From the NCBI RefSeq assembly GCF_018397995.1, contig NZ_BBQH01000027.1, forward strand, positions 1-64,000: DNA of 64,000 nucleotides. The letters run 5' to 3'. The notes beneath the pieces were generated by a model, which worked only from the letters and a program-made list of their open reading frames with translations, did not search any database and was not told the origin of the DNA. This DNA comes from Rhizomonospora bruguierae. Its GTDB lineage: Bacteria > Actinomycetota > Actinomycetes > Mycobacteriales > Micromonosporaceae. Position numbers and translations under genes: made by a program. How positions within the stretch are numbered: the first letter of the stretch is position 1; every line of letters starts with the position of its first letter. Below are positions 2,126 through 13,578 of the stretch, piece after piece.

Positions 2126-2163
2126 ATGTGGACCACATATCACGGTGATCATGTGGACCACAC
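2126..2163. promoter_or_regulatory. Paired palindromic operator-like sites between divergent genes
   Basis: Two copies of ATGTGGACCACA(T/C) lie at 2126-2138 and 2151-2163, 25 bp apart. Each is palindromic around a central A. Between them is a third inverted repeat, ATCACGGTGAT (2139-2149). The right part contains GGTGATCATG (2144-2153), which recurs twice downstream of the HTH gene. TGTGTGG and GATGTGGAT half-sites follow at 2176-2196. The position between divergent genes suggests an operator cluster bound by the HTH protein at 2214. Binding is inference. Confidence 0.5.
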
Positions 2164-2213
2164 AAGATCCCAACTGTGTGGCGGTCCGATGTGGATGCAT
2201 AGCCTGACCTGCT

Positions 2214-2468
2214 GTGGCACGCCTCGACGACCTCGCCCGCGCTTTCCGGCGCGCTGAGGCGGCCGTCCCCGAGGCGGAGCGCGACGCCGCCGCGAAGATC
2301 GCAAAAGCCCGGCGAGACAAGGATCTTGCGCGCCAAGCCCTCGCCGCCGGCATCGTCGAGGCGTGGCGGGCGGGCACCAGTCAGGCGGAGATCGCGCGCC
2401 GAACGGGCTACAGCCGCGAGCACATCCGGCGCATCCTTCGCGAGCACGGGGTACAGCCAGGCGAGTAG
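2214..2468 (+). CDS. HTH DNA-binding regulator of the integrated element (84 aa)
   Basis: The N-terminal 45 residues form a charged Ala/Arg/Glu helix, probably a coiled coil. Residues 48-80 are a clear helix-turn-helix (an AGTSQAEIARRTGYS core), similar to resolvase/transposase-type HTH_23 or Psq domains. The start is the GTG at 2214. It is divergent from the 76-aa gene, and palindromic sites flank it on both sides, sharing the decamer GGTGATCATG. This arrangement fits an autoregulated control protein of the element. Specific binding is inferred. Confidence 0.65.
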   Translation: MARLDDLARAFRRAEAAVPEAERDAAAKIAKARRDKDLARQALAAGIVEAWRAGTSQAEIARRTGYSREHIRRILREHGVQPGE

Positions 2469-2470
2469 GC

Positions 2471-2561
2471 GATCATCCGTTCGGGTGATCATGGCGGTGA
2501 CCTCGCACTTTCGGTGTCACCCGTCCGGGTGATCATGCGCCGCGACTTGTCGGAGTGATCA
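2471..2561. repeat. Iteron-like sites downstream of the HTH gene
   Basis: Three related units share (C/G)GG(A/G)TGATCA: CCGTTCGGGTGATCATG (2477-2493), CCGTCCGGGTGATCATG (2521-2537) and a diverged TGTCGGAGTGATCAA (2549-2562). The first forms a near-palindrome with GATCATCCG at 2471. The second contains the perfect CACCCG-TC-CGGGTG (2518-2531). The decamer GGTGATCATG also occurs upstream of the gene at 2144. They could be operators, replication iterons, or in part a terminator for the HTH gene. Confidence 0.5.
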
Positions 2562-2715
2562 ACATCTGCGAATCGCCGGGGCGTAGGCGGGGTAGACGCG
2601 GAACTCCCCCGGGGCCGATGGTAACTCCCTCGTTACCGGCCGGTCACTGAGTGGGGAAGCCCTGACAACGGAGTTGAGGGCAGGCGACCGGCGCGGGGGA
2701 AGGTTCCGCCCGGTC

Positions 2716-3039
2716 ATGCATCAACACGACCATCATGAGGTGCAAGCGATCATCTACGTCCACTCCGACAATCTGAACATCCACACCGAGCGATGCGCCG
2801 ACTACATCCACCGCCTCGGCTACGCCCTGGCCGCCGTCGTCGTCGACGACCAGGACGGCGGCCGATGGCACGAAGCGGCCGGCATGCTCCTCAGTGGCGA
2901 CGCGCAGGTGCTTGTCGTCGCAGAGCGCGATGAGCTACCGCCCGACCGCCTGCCACGGGTAGACGTGGTGGCCGAGGAGCGGCGGCGCCGGCTGTCTCCC
3001 GCTCTCGCCCAGCGGTGCCGTCCTCGCCTAGTCCGCTGA
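2716..3039 (+). CDS. Small protein resembling a degenerate serine-recombinase N-domain (107 aa)
   Basis: From residue 10 the pattern (IIYVHSDNLN, then C-A-D-Y, GYALAAVVVDDQDGG, and LVVAERDEL) resembles the N-terminal nucleotide-fold domain of serine recombinases. It lacks the normal YxRxS catalytic start and has no DNA-binding C-domain. It is therefore probably not an active recombinase by itself. The ATG at 2716 follows a GGGGGAAGG site. Its 3' end overlaps the convergent integrase gene by about 150 bp. The resemblance is my reading of the pattern, and the function is unknown. Confidence 0.5.
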   Translation: MHQHDHHEVQAIIYVHSDNLNIHTERCADYIHRLGYALAAVVVDDQDGGRWHEAAGMLLSGDAQVLVVAERDELPPDRLPRVDVVAEERRRRLSPALAQRCRPRLVR

Positions 3040-3871
3040 ATGGCAGTACGGTGACCGCCTCCTGTAGCCGGGAGGCGGTCACCTGCGTGTACCGCATCGT
3101 GTGTTGCAGCGAGGCGTGTCCCAGCAGTTCCTGAACGGCGCGCACGTCCCGGTACCTCTCGTTGATCATGGTGGCGTAGAAGTGTCGCAGGGGGTACAGC
3201 GTGGTGGGGATGCCGACGCTCTGTAGGTACTCGTTGACCATCCGCGACACCCATTTGCCGTCCGCCGGCTTGGCACGCCGCGTCGGCACAAATAGCGGGC
3301 CGGGTGGCATCGGCTCGACCAGCTCCCATACCCGGGGCACGGTGGGCACGGCGCGGCTCCTGCGGCCCTTGCCTCGGATGACCGCGATGACCTCGCGGGT
3401 CACGTGGGACCGGTCGAGACGTGCGATCTCGAACGGCCGCAGCCCGGCGAGCGCGGCGAGGCGGCAGGCCAGCCGCCAGGGGTCGGCGGTGTCGAAGATG
3501 CACGCCTTGACGACGGGCATCTCTGCGGGGCGGGGTAAGCCGGGCTCGGGGTTGGGGCGGCGCAGTCGGGTCGCCGGGTTGTAGCTCAGCCAGGGGTCGT
3601 CCTCGTCGGTGGCCCACCGGTACAGGCGGACGATGTGCTTGTAGTAGGTGGCCCTGGTTTCGTCCGCCCAGCCGTCGCGGTCGAGCCAGGCGGCGAGCTC
3701 GTCGCCGGTGGATTCGGCCAGCCCGGCGGGTAGCTCCTGGTCGAGGCGGTAGAGGATCTTGCGGGCGCCGTCAACGGTGCTGTTGGCGTAGGTGCCGGCG
3801 CGCATCCACGTCAGATGGGTTTCGATCATGTCAGCGGTGGTGGCCATGCGCTCAGGCTGCTGGATAGGCAT
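2891..3871 (-). CDS. int: Tyrosine-type site-specific recombinase/integrase
   Basis: This enzyme would catalyse integration and excision of the element. The first 110 or so residues are a SAM-like core-binding domain. The catalytic domain shows the first Arg in GLRPFEI (about residue 165), a Lys in a GKG turn, an Arg in YPLRHFYAT (about 232), a His in LLGHAS and the nucleophile Tyr in MRYTQV (about 263). The usual HxxR is YxxR here. The C-terminus has about 50 extra Arg/Ala-rich residues that overlap the opposite gene. ATG starts at 3871 or 3847 both lack a Shine-Dalgarno site. A TATAGG box just upstream of 3871 suggests a leaderless message. Confidence 0.85.
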   Translation of the reverse strand: MPIQQPERMATTADMIETHLTWMRAGTYANSTVDGARKILYRLDQELPAGLAESTGDELAAWLDRDGWADETRATYYKHIVRLYRWATDEDDPWLSYNPATRLRRPNPEPGLPRPAEMPVVKACIFDTADPWRLACRLAALAGLRPFEIARLDRSHVTREVIAVIRGKGRRSRAVPTVPRVWELVEPMPPGPLFVPTRRAKPADGKWVSRMVNEYLQSVGIPTTLYPLRHFYATMINERYRDVRAVQELLGHASLQHTMRYTQVTASRLQEAVTVLPFSGLGEDGTAGRERETAGAAAPRPPRLPVAGGRAVAHRALRRQAPARRH

Positions 3872-4109
3872 CGGCTACGCCTATACGCCGACGGGGCGGG
3901 GGAGCAGGGCTGGGCGGCGGGTGGACGCCTTCGGGCCGCCCCGAACGGGGGAGGTGGCAGCCTTGGGTCGCCTCTTCGTCTGGGGCGGGACGGTCGGCCG
4001 GGCCGTTTGGGTGCGCTGAGCTGGCGTTTCGGGTGTCTGGGCGCACCGAACAGTAGTCCCACCCCTACCGGGGCGGGAATCGCCGTGACAAATCTGTCAG
4101 GGCCGAGGA
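3872..4109. other. Intergenic edge between element and core genome
   Basis: This is 238 bp without a supported gene. It holds a TATAGG box reading toward the integrase, a GC-rich stretch, and a small hairpin-capable CCCCTACCGGGGCGGG near 4064. The element's right attachment site would be expected here. No tRNA 3' end or obvious direct repeat could be recognised, and the matching left site is outside the window. Confidence 0.35.
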
Positions 4110-4886
4110 TCAGGGCCGGGGGGTCGTGATCGAGGCGGCCGTCTCCACCGCGGGCAGCAGGGCGTGCGCCCAGACCCGGTACCCGTCCGCGGAGGGGTGG
4201 TAGCCGTCGTGGCTGAGCGTCCCGGCGTCGGCGCGGAACACCGGACCGGTCTCGGTGCCCAGGTCGACCACGGCGCCACCGGCGTCGAGGACCGCGCGGG
4301 CCTGCGCCCTGGCCGTCCGCCGGCCCAACCAGCCGATCACCTGCCGCAACGGTTGGGCGACGGAGCGGACCGCGCCGAGGTCCGGGCAGGAGCCCACCAC
4401 CACCTCGGTACCGGCCTCGCGCAGCCGCCGGACCGCGGCGGCCAGGTACGCGGCGGACTCGGCCGGGCGGCGCAGCGTGGTGGCGTCGTTGGCGCCGATG
4501 AGGATGACCGCCACGTCCGGACGCTCGCCGAGCAGGGCCCGGGCCACCTGCGTGGACAGGTCGGTGGCCCGGGAGCCGGAGACGCCGACGCTGGACAGGT
4601 GGACCCGGCGGGGCTGGACGCCGTGGGCGAGCAGTTCGGCGAGCTGGCCGCCGACCGTGTCCTGCACCCGGTCCACGCCGACGCCGAGGGCCGCGGAGTC
4701 GCCGAGCAGCACCAGGCGCAGCGGCGGGGCGCCGGTGGGGCCCTTCGACGAGCGCACCGCGAGGCGCATGTCCGGCTGGGCGTACCGGCGGCTGCGGGCG
4801 CGCAGCGCCTGGGCCGCCAGCAGCGCCGCACCGCCGGCGGTACCGGCGACGAGCGTGATCACCGCCGCGCGGCCGAGGTATCTCAT
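4110..4886 (-). CDS. SGNH/GDSL-family hydrolase (258 aa)
   Basis: A membrane-anchored or exported esterase/lipase-like enzyme. An N-terminal hydrophobic segment (residues 5-25) is followed by block I, LLGDSAALG (nucleophile Ser). The block with Gly/Asn is ILIGANDATT, and the C-terminal DGYHPSADGY carries the catalytic His. Together these give the SGNH Ser-Asp-His set. Its ATG overlaps the stop of the upstream paralogue in an ATGA, so the two are translated as a pair. The substrate is unknown; cell-wall or lipid esters are typical for the family. Confidence 0.85.
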   Translation of the reverse strand: MRYLGRAAVITLVAGTAGGAALLAAQALRARSRRYAQPDMRLAVRSSKGPTGAPPLRLVLLGDSAALGVGVDRVQDTVGGQLAELLAHGVQPRRVHLSSVGVSGSRATDLSTQVARALLGERPDVAVILIGANDATTLRRPAESAAYLAAAVRRLREAGTEVVVGSCPDLGAVRSVAQPLRQVIGWLGRRTARAQARAVLDAGGAVVDLGTETGPVFRADAGTLSHDGYHPSADGYRVWAHALLPAVETAASITTPRP

Positions 4887-11358: not shown

Positions 11359-11884
11359 ACCCGCCTCTTTGAACACCGCCCGCTCTGAATATGGTCGACC
11401 CCCGGGCTCCGCGCGGACGCGGGCCGGCTGGACAAGGCCGGCATACCCGGGGGTCGGGTGGCTGCCTGGAATTCGCCGAGCCGCCGCCACACGGTCTCGG
11501 TCCCACGCCGCGGGCATCGTGCCCGGCGGCGGTTGAGCCAAGGAACAGCGGCTAGCGGACAGCCACCTCACGAGTCCGATTGCTATACAAAGCTGGACCA
11601 CCTCCCTTCCCGTGTACGGCCAAACTATCCAGCCGTGATCGGGGCCGACAAGTGGTTTCCAGAACCTGGCGGCGGGGCCCGTACGGATCTCCCGGCCGGA
11701 GCCCGCCCCGCCGCCGGGCCGCCGCCGGCCCGCTCGCGTCACCGGGGAAAGGCCGGCTCCACGATCAAGGGCACTGGGCGTCGACCCAGCGGGCGGCCCT
11801 TGACCGCGGAGCCCTGCCGACCCGTGCTGCGACGTCCGGGTCGCTATCCCGAGCGGACGCGGTCCACCCGGGCGGCGTCAGCGC
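11359..11884. other. 526-bp region between rnz and the Lys/Asn-rich gene
   Basis: No gene is supported. It contains a hairpin with 11-bp arms CGACCCCCGGG (11396-11406 with 11446-11456) in the leader of rnz. A nested hairpin near 11767-11800 (AAGGGC...CTGGG...CCCAG...GCCCTT) could end the leftward Lys/Asn-rich transcript. AT-rich boxes sit near 11583 (CTATACAAAG). Confidence 0.4.
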
Positions 11885-12514
11885 TCAGGAATACGCCGGC
11901 CGCTTGTGGTTGTGCTTCTTGTGGTCGTTTTTCTTGTGGTTGTGCTTCTTGTTGTTGTGCTTCTTGTTCTCGCACTTCTTGTGGTTGTTCTTCTTGTTGT
12001 TCTTCTTGTTCTGGTTCTTCTTCTCGTCGTGCTTCTTGTTGTTCTTCTTGTTGTTGTTCTTGTGGTCGCACTTCTTCTTGTTGTCGTGCTTCTTCTTGTT
12101 GTTGTTCTGCTTCTTGTTCTTCTCGTTCTTGTTCTTCTTGTTCTCGTTCTTGTTCTTGTTCTTGTTTTCGTTCTTCTTGTTGTTCTCGTGCTTCTTGTTG
12201 TCGTGCTTCTTGTTGTTGTTGTTCTCGTTCTGGTTGTTGCACTTGTTCTTGTTCTCGTTCTTGTTGTTGTTCTGGTTGTTGTTGTTTTCGTTCTGGTTGT
12301 TCTCGTTCTTGTGGTGCCGGTTGTTCTTCTTCTCGTTGTCGCACTTCTTGTCGTCGTTGCGGCGGTCGTCCCACTTCTGGTGGTGACCGGCCCGCGTGTA
12401 CGCGTGCCAGCCGTAGCCATCGGCCGGGTTGGCGTTCGCCATCGCCGGCGCGACCAGCAACCCGCCGGCGGCCAGCGCGCCGACGATCATCGACTTGCGG
12501 ATCCAGGACCTCAT
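11885..12514 (-). CDS. Secreted, extremely Lys/Asn-rich low-complexity protein (209 aa)
   Basis: A Sec signal peptide (residues 1-28: basic start, hydrophobic core, AMANA cleavage region) precedes a short folded-looking stretch with Trp/Tyr/His (residues 30-50). Residues 57-204 then contain almost only Lys, Asn, His, Asp, Glu, Gln and Arg, about 70% of them Lys plus Asn by my count, with no hydrophobic residue. Four Cys occur at 58, 92, 149 and 181. Asn is AAC and Lys AAG throughout, matching high-GC codon choice, so the frame is used as protein. The ATG at 12514 has GAGAGGA upstream. The mature product would be cationic, disordered and extracellular. I know no characterised family for it. 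Confidence 0.8.
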   Translation of the reverse strand: MRSWIRKSMIVGALAAGGLLVAPAMANANPADGYGWHAYTRAGHHQKWDDRRNDDKKCDNEKKNNRHHKNENNQNENNNNQNNNKNENKNKCNNQNENNNNKKHDNKKHENNKKNENKNKNKNENKKNKNEKNKKQNNNKKKHDNKKKCDHKNNNKKNNKKHDEKKNQNKKNNKKNNHKKCENKKHNNKKHNHKKNDHKKHNHKRPAYS

Positions 12515-12871
12515 CGGGTGTCCTCTCGTGTCTGTTCCGGGAAAGGAATCCATCGCTTCGGGTGTGCACTGGTATCTGGTTGTCCGGAACCCGCGACGGG
12601 TGGCGCGCGAATGCCGCGGCGGCCACGGTCGCGTCGCATCAATGCGGGTACACGCACGGCGGCACCCCGGGGCGGTCGGCCCGGAAAGCGCAATATCCGA
12701 CCATGCCTCGCAGCGTATGGGCGGGGCGGTCCGCGGGTGGCCGGCCGTCGTGCCCCAACCCGGACGGTCGATAGTGGAAGATTCGCCCGAAAGAAAGGCG
12801 AATGGGGGCGCTACCCCGATGGGTTGACCAACGGTCGGGGGAAATGGCGAAAGAACGGGTTGGACAGCAAA
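12515..12871. other. Region between the Lys/Asn-rich gene and the msrA terminator
   Basis: No gene is supported. It must hold the promoter of the Lys/Asn-rich gene, but no clear -10/-35 pair is visible. A 7-bp hairpin ATTCGCC...GGCGAAT lies at 12781-12803. Confidence 0.4.
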
Positions 12872-12902
12872 AAGGCCGGGTGGTTCGACACCACCCGGCC
12901 TT
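12872..12902 (-). terminator. Rho-independent terminator of msrA
   Basis: A perfect 13-bp stem (AAGGCCGGGTGGT with ACCACCCGGCCTT) and a 5-nt loop are followed on the minus strand by a run of five T. It lies just beyond the msrA stop codon. This is the most canonical terminator in the window. Confidence 0.85.
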
Positions 12903-12915
12903 GCCTGTTACGTCG

Positions 12916-13578
<663 letters not shown>

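Follow-up and report, generated by a model that had tools for sequence, protein, structure and literature searches.

A putative exported Lys/Asn-rich protein, apparently lineage-restricted, with a chaplin-type signal peptide in Rhizomonospora bruguierae

Within a 64,000-nucleotide stretch of the genome of Rhizomonospora bruguierae (contig NZ_BBQH01000027.1, positions 1 to 64,000; here called the window), one reading frame is translated into a protein made almost entirely of lysine, asparagine and other polar or charged residues. In DNA with a mean G+C content of 0.74 such a frame raises three questions: whether it is a selected gene or a simple-sequence expansion, where it came from, and what its product might do.

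The gene and its product

The frame occupies 11885..12514 on the minus strand and encodes 209 amino acids plus a stop codon; its assignment as a gene rests on the sequence and on the codon-phase test given below. Read from the sequence, the ATG lies at 12514 and the stop codon ends at 11885, so that coordinates, strand and start were correct in the preliminary description. Upstream of the ATG there is a ribosome-binding-type sequence, GAGAGGA (12521..12527, minus strand). The protein starts with a Sec-type signal peptide (residues 1-28; 12431..12514, minus strand), of the chaplin type, with its cleavage after Ala-28 placed by eye. Then follow a short aromatic stretch, a long polar tail (residues 57-204) and the residues RPAYS, the C-terminus as a whole reading HNHKRPAYS. 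The aromatic stretch, residues 29-56 (12347..12430, minus strand), is the start of the mature part and contains GYGWHAY and the majority of the mature part's aromatic residues. Three blocks can be distinguished in the tail, all on the minus strand: an Asn-rich block at residues 69-101 (12212..12310; Asn plus Gln 24/33, net charge 0), a Lys/Asn block at residues 102-177 (11984..12211; net charge +23) and a Lys/His block at residues 178-204 (11903..11983; 7 His in 27 residues, net charge +9).

The composition of the tail is extreme. It comprises 57 Asn, 50 Lys, 14 His, 11 Glu, 6 Asp, 5 Gln, 4 Cys and 1 Arg. Lysine and asparagine thus account for 107 of 148 residues (72%), close to the 70% noticed at first reading, and aliphatic and aromatic residues are absent, as had also been stated. 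The four widely spaced cysteines were found at positions 58, 92, 149 and 181. Half of the histidines (7/14) fall within the final 27 tail residues, with a hypergeometric p of 0.0045 that is post hoc, since this block was picked after inspection. A sharp drop in G+C content had been attributed to this gene alone, and it proved to be the deepest dip of the window: the five lowest 300-base values (0.41-0.46) all overlap the gene, and the next-lowest dip outside it reaches 0.63. None of 95 other stop-to-stop frames (at least 100 amino acids, third-position G+C of at least 0.85) exceeded 11 Lys plus Asn per 80 residues; the gene's own stop-to-stop frame failed this filter and is therefore outside the list. 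Opposite the tail, a Leu/Val-rich plus-strand frame of 357 amino acids (11906-12979) is a by-product of the T-rich complement and might be annotated in error as encoding a membrane protein.

The mature part is nearly devoid of order-promoting residues and has a pI of 10.1 and a net charge of +35. Its mean scaled hydropathy of 0.145 compares with a disorder boundary of 0.48 in a charge-hydropathy plot. A single-sequence AlphaFold2 model, which is weak evidence, had a mean pLDDT of 55 and one helix at residues 46-63. By its composition and this model the mature chain is predicted to be disordered.

Selection on the tail and distribution of the gene

An open frame of this length is no evidence for a gene, because the coding strand of the tail contains less than 1% T (0.9%). 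None of the three minus-strand frames of the tail is interrupted, and base shuffling left the tail frame open in 915 of 2000 cases. Third codon positions are G or C in 145 of the 148 tail codons. This was the observation from which selection on the protein had been argued, and the observation stands; the argument does not, for any AAC/AAG expansion would show such third positions even if neutral, and they are weak evidence. The claim of selection itself found support elsewhere, in a contrast between the first and second codon positions. In this codon-phase test, which treats changes as independent and uses one gene without homologues, AAC/AAG (AAS) was assumed as the ground state and departures from it were compared at the two positions. 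Over all 148 tail codons, position 1 departed in 41 and position 2 in 5 (p 4e-8), figures that became 37 and 1 when the four Cys codons were set aside (p 3e-10). When distinct three-codon contexts were counted once, which allows for copied repeats, 21 departures stood against 1 (p 1e-5). The changes at position 1 yield His, Gln, Asp and Glu, while changes at position 2 would yield mainly Ser, Thr, Arg, Ile or Met. The contrast is predicted by selection for a strongly polar chain and not by drift, and the protein therefore looks selected. The second codon positions are constrained, in keeping with such selection, and the frame probably encodes a real, selected and exported protein. The comparison of positions 1 and 2 is a homologue-free test of selection for low-complexity orphan genes and can be applied elsewhere.

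The tail is loosely repetitive. Identities at a lag of five residues numbered 62 against 39.5 expected (z 4.6), a value reached by none of 5000 shuffles, and the tail DNA has a period of 15 nt with 70% matches. The longest exact repeat within the gene is 21 nt, which gives no sign of very recent slippage or of a collapsed assembly. These features bear on the suggestion that the tail is a neutral or slightly harmful AAC/AAG triplet expansion joined to a signal peptide acquired from elsewhere, in drift and due to disappear before long. Such an expansion would account for the loose 15-nt period, for the open frame and G/C third positions that arise without selection, and for the lack of a relative in 353 other genomes of the family (see below). 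It would not be expected to give such an excess of first-position changes (37, with 1 at position 2, or 21 against 1 by context), and the shortness of the longest exact repeat also speaks against it. Neutral expansion is accordingly disfavoured and we consider it quite improbable.

The genus is represented by a single genome, that of the window. Searched against 61 genomes, the whole protein matched two at E 0.001, its own genome and one other with a match to the signal peptide. Among 300 genomes of the family 103 matched at E 0.1, its own included, and most matches lay within residues 1-35. The Lys/Asn tail was absent from the 16 whole-protein match places read, out of 18 retrieved, which were mostly the farther-reaching matches. 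At the two remaining places, L038 and L044, tblastn found nothing in that reading; the former was also read as L127, and L044 had no frame of at least 60 residues with at least 18 Lys plus Asn in 60. The tail alone matched 4 of the 300 family genomes at E 1, including its own, and the three other matches were rejected (12-21% identity and internal stops; one frame of each was read). The mature part matched 2 of 354 family genomes at E 0.1, again including its own; a match in genome G184 (E 0.063, 18% identity) was rejected because it lies in Arg-rich sequence where long frames overlap. No credible relative of the mature part was thus left among the 353 other family genomes. At the level of the class, five of 394 genomes matched at E 0.01 with the gene's own counted, and the other four matches (15-52% identity over 29-173 residues) were discarded for their unlike frames.

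A pattern search of a genome-contig collection returned 53 stretches, none of which was confirmed, and a pattern back-translated from GYGWHAYT found nothing in the same collection. Plasmids gave no match with the low-complexity filter on, and none of ten stretches from viral contigs was confirmed. Owing to the composition correction of HMMER, compositional analogues lacking a match to the signal peptide could escape. Pfam, PHROGs and PDB sequences gave no match to the protein at E 1 and NCBIfam three composition-type matches far below cut-off, in agreement with the earlier remark that no described family resembles it. In the titles and opening lines of abstracts that were consulted, no Lys/Asn-rich exported actinobacterial protein was described. 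No homologue with the tail was found in the relatives' genomes, an outcome which the preliminary description would have taken as a mark of neutral trinucleotide expansion. The absence of homologues points to a lineage-restricted gene; neutrality is not thereby demonstrated. As far as the genomes searched show, the gene appears to be restricted to its lineage.

The chaplin-type signal peptide and the origin of the gene

The signal peptide noticed at first reading was supported by further searches and turned out to be of a type carried by chaplins. Residues 1-43 were compared with the gene's own genome and with seven relatives, chosen among genomes already matching the whole protein in the search of 300. 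In each of the eight genomes a single chaplin-like ORF stood out as the clear match apart from the gene itself (E 6.6e-6 to 3.4e-4), with runner-up matches at E 0.056 or worse. The matching ORFs begin MKTWVRK. The Pfam chaplin model PF03777 scored above its cut-off in seven of them and reached 19.3 against a cut-off of 21 in the eighth. By a crude motif count, 24 of the 29 loci first retrieved for a signal-peptide match were chaplin-like, and a match in genome G077 was again a chaplin-like ORF. The whole protein had no match at E 0.1 in 197 of the 300 family genomes. A match to the signal peptide, where there is one, is thus a chaplin's; a signal peptide of this type occurs on the chaplins of this family and does not define chaplins generally.

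The chaplin-like gene of the same genome (locus L049, also L003; approximately 3070-4178, minus strand) is the single place of all three PF03777 matches over cut-off in that genome. Its signal peptide has 14 of 29 residues in common with that of the Lys/Asn protein, and most of the others compared have 17 of 29. The likeness ends there: the chaplin domain is absent from the Lys/Asn protein (no Pfam match at E 1), and the mature part of chaplins is hydrophobic whereas its own is polar and charged. No intermediate between the two was seen among 33 ORFs of chaplin type that share the signal peptide, in which Lys plus Asn per 60 residues was 19 in L017 and at most 13 in all others. The protein at L017 has a Lys-rich repeat tail of KPVKTGYG units, unlike the Lys/Asn tail. 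Upstream DNA of the gene and of the chaplin gene in the same genome is not alike (local score 16; best of 200 shuffles 23), so that shared regulation lacks support. The signal peptide may have descended from a chaplin gene or may be convergent, either being possible.

Chaplins are functional amyloids, and Gln/Asn-rich prion-like domains are recognised by the rule of at least 30 Gln plus Asn in 80 residues. The Lys/Asn protein reaches 43 in 80, above this threshold, and has a chaplin-type signal peptide. It might therefore be a prion-like partner of chaplins, its neutral Asn-rich block at residues 69-101 assembling, alone or together, with chaplin fibres while the charged remainder hydrates them. 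We regard this as very unlikely: a high net charge across most of the tail opposes amyloid formation, the neutral block has just 33 residues, and no mature sequence is held in common with chaplins.

More can be said of the site at which the gene lies. On the minus strand the order is a HIT-type protein gene, msrA, a terminator-like hairpin (12872..12902, minus strand; 13 pairs and a T run), the Lys/Asn gene, the Rfam small RNA Ms_IGR-5 (11390-11615, minus strand; 89.8 bits) and rnz. The neighbours read, whose names were assigned by eye from translations, were msrA, rnz, the HIT-type protein and sulfur-amino-acid enzymes. Two terminator-like sites were found against 3.6 expected in shuffles, and it is the strength of the hairpin and its place that suggest a separate transcription unit. 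No sigma-70-type promoter site was found for the gene. An equation of Ms_IGR-5 with Ms1 was dropped, as other flanking genes are named for Ms1 in the portion of the source available (PMC9130861).

msrA was present in 37 of 37 genomes. No gene of this kind was seen within 1.5 kb on either side of msrA at 29 loci of relatives, a comparison covering the first 70 residues of frames with third-position G+C above 0.85, of which L055 and L071 gave none. In most of these 29 loci rnz does not lie beside msrA, and in the 16 that were compared with Rfam, Ms_IGR-5 was kept in one, L061. L061 comes from a different genus of this family; there msrA, Ms_IGR-5 and rnz are consecutive without the Lys/Asn gene, and the aligned pieces lie 83 nt apart, compared with 1.3 kb in the window. 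The arrangement agrees with birth or insertion of the gene at the msrA/Ms_IGR-5 site, the alternative being its loss in L061. The first 96 nt or so of Ms_IGR-5 are 98% identical in L061, an unusually strong conservation. A check for mobile elements found no direct repeats outside the tail. An imperfect, G+C-rich inverted pair of 17 nt (11696-11712 / 12720-12736, 82%), a raw match, spans the gene.

A possible origin, although not a probable one, is that of a newly born gene in which a chaplin-type signal peptide was joined to an AAC/AAG expansion, the tail then being moulded by selection almost exclusively through its first codon positions. With A kept at the second position, the product would be an exported polyelectrolyte of residues with A-middle codons, plus four Cys and one Arg. 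If this is true, the locus would be a snapshot of a 74% G+C actinomycete turning simple-sequence DNA into a new polymer for its surface.

Proposed function and comparison with known proteins

For the function of the protein we favour, tentatively and at somewhat less than even chances, that of a lineage-restricted, secreted and disordered polycation which binds anionic surface polymers. The chaplin-type signal peptide would direct Sec export of the mature chain, as we infer from its sequence. On inspection the protein has no hydrophobic C-terminal segment usable as a sorting signal, and neither NCBIfam nor Pfam matched it to a sorting model; it is thus probably not covalently anchored. Outside the cell the chain would act as a flexible polyelectrolyte held by charge, with its Lys/Asn repeats binding wall polymer, matrix polysaccharide or extracellular DNA. 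The Lys/His end might make this binding responsive to pH or metal ions, and the four lone cysteines may cross-link chains. The signal peptide in common with chaplins hints at the same surface destination. That binding of anionic polymers is the main job of the protein is likewise put forward at a little under an even chance. If so, bacteria with 74% G+C can build and keep an exported polycation from compositionally disfavoured residues.

The histidines and cysteines could instead be the point of the protein. As an extracellular buffer of metals or protons it would bind Cu, Ni or Zn through its His-rich end and its Cys, the Lys and Asn serving solubility and proximity to the wall. Such a role is favoured by the 4 Cys of the tail and by the 7 His among its final 27 residues, but the His are scattered singly without a fixed ligand motif and are few across most of the tail, and no metal transporter or sensor was recognised by eye among the neighbours read. 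A metal or proton buffer therefore seems unlikely.

Exported disordered surface proteins are increasingly found to be important for development in this group. According to the available part of its description, SspA of Actinoplanes missouriensis is a disordered spore-surface protein required for sporangium strength (PMC13293333). As there described, it resembles the Lys/Asn protein in its export by the general secretory pathway, in a mature part predicted to be wholly disordered and in its small size (191 amino acids). Compared by description, the two differ at the C-terminus, where SspA has a sortase signal (PMC13293333) and none was seen in the Lys/Asn protein.

Two further proteins are analogues, for which homology is not claimed. 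One, encoded at L034 (approximately 2150-3100, plus strand) in another genus of the family, is likewise of the exported type, of low complexity and with a five-residue period (z 12.6), but its chemistry is that of Asp, Lys, Gly and Arg, and its C-terminal segment resembles a GVDTG sorting domain (26.2 bits against an NCBIfam cut-off of 29). The other, in genome G097 (L035, the same place as L129), combines a signal peptide with a stretch rich in Lys and His that contains DHKK units, Lys plus Asn reaching at most 26 in 60. It differs in that its tail follows curlin-like repeats (judged by eye) and contains Pro, Val and Ile. It matched the whole Lys/Asn protein at E 0.0027 and its mature part not at all at E 0.1. 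The place lies at the end of contig G097:C216, which truncates the ORF. The MAP_0585 family (NCBIfam NF043060) also combines a signal peptide with a low-complexity middle. The Lys/Asn protein scores 21.2 bits against this model, whose curated cut-off is 170, and the two members out of four for which the frame was recovered (L120 and L121) have a middle rich in Pro, Gly, Gln and Asn and an aromatic C-terminus. If the favoured reading is true, an unanchored Lys/Asn/His type would join the exported disordered surface proteins of which SspA is an example.
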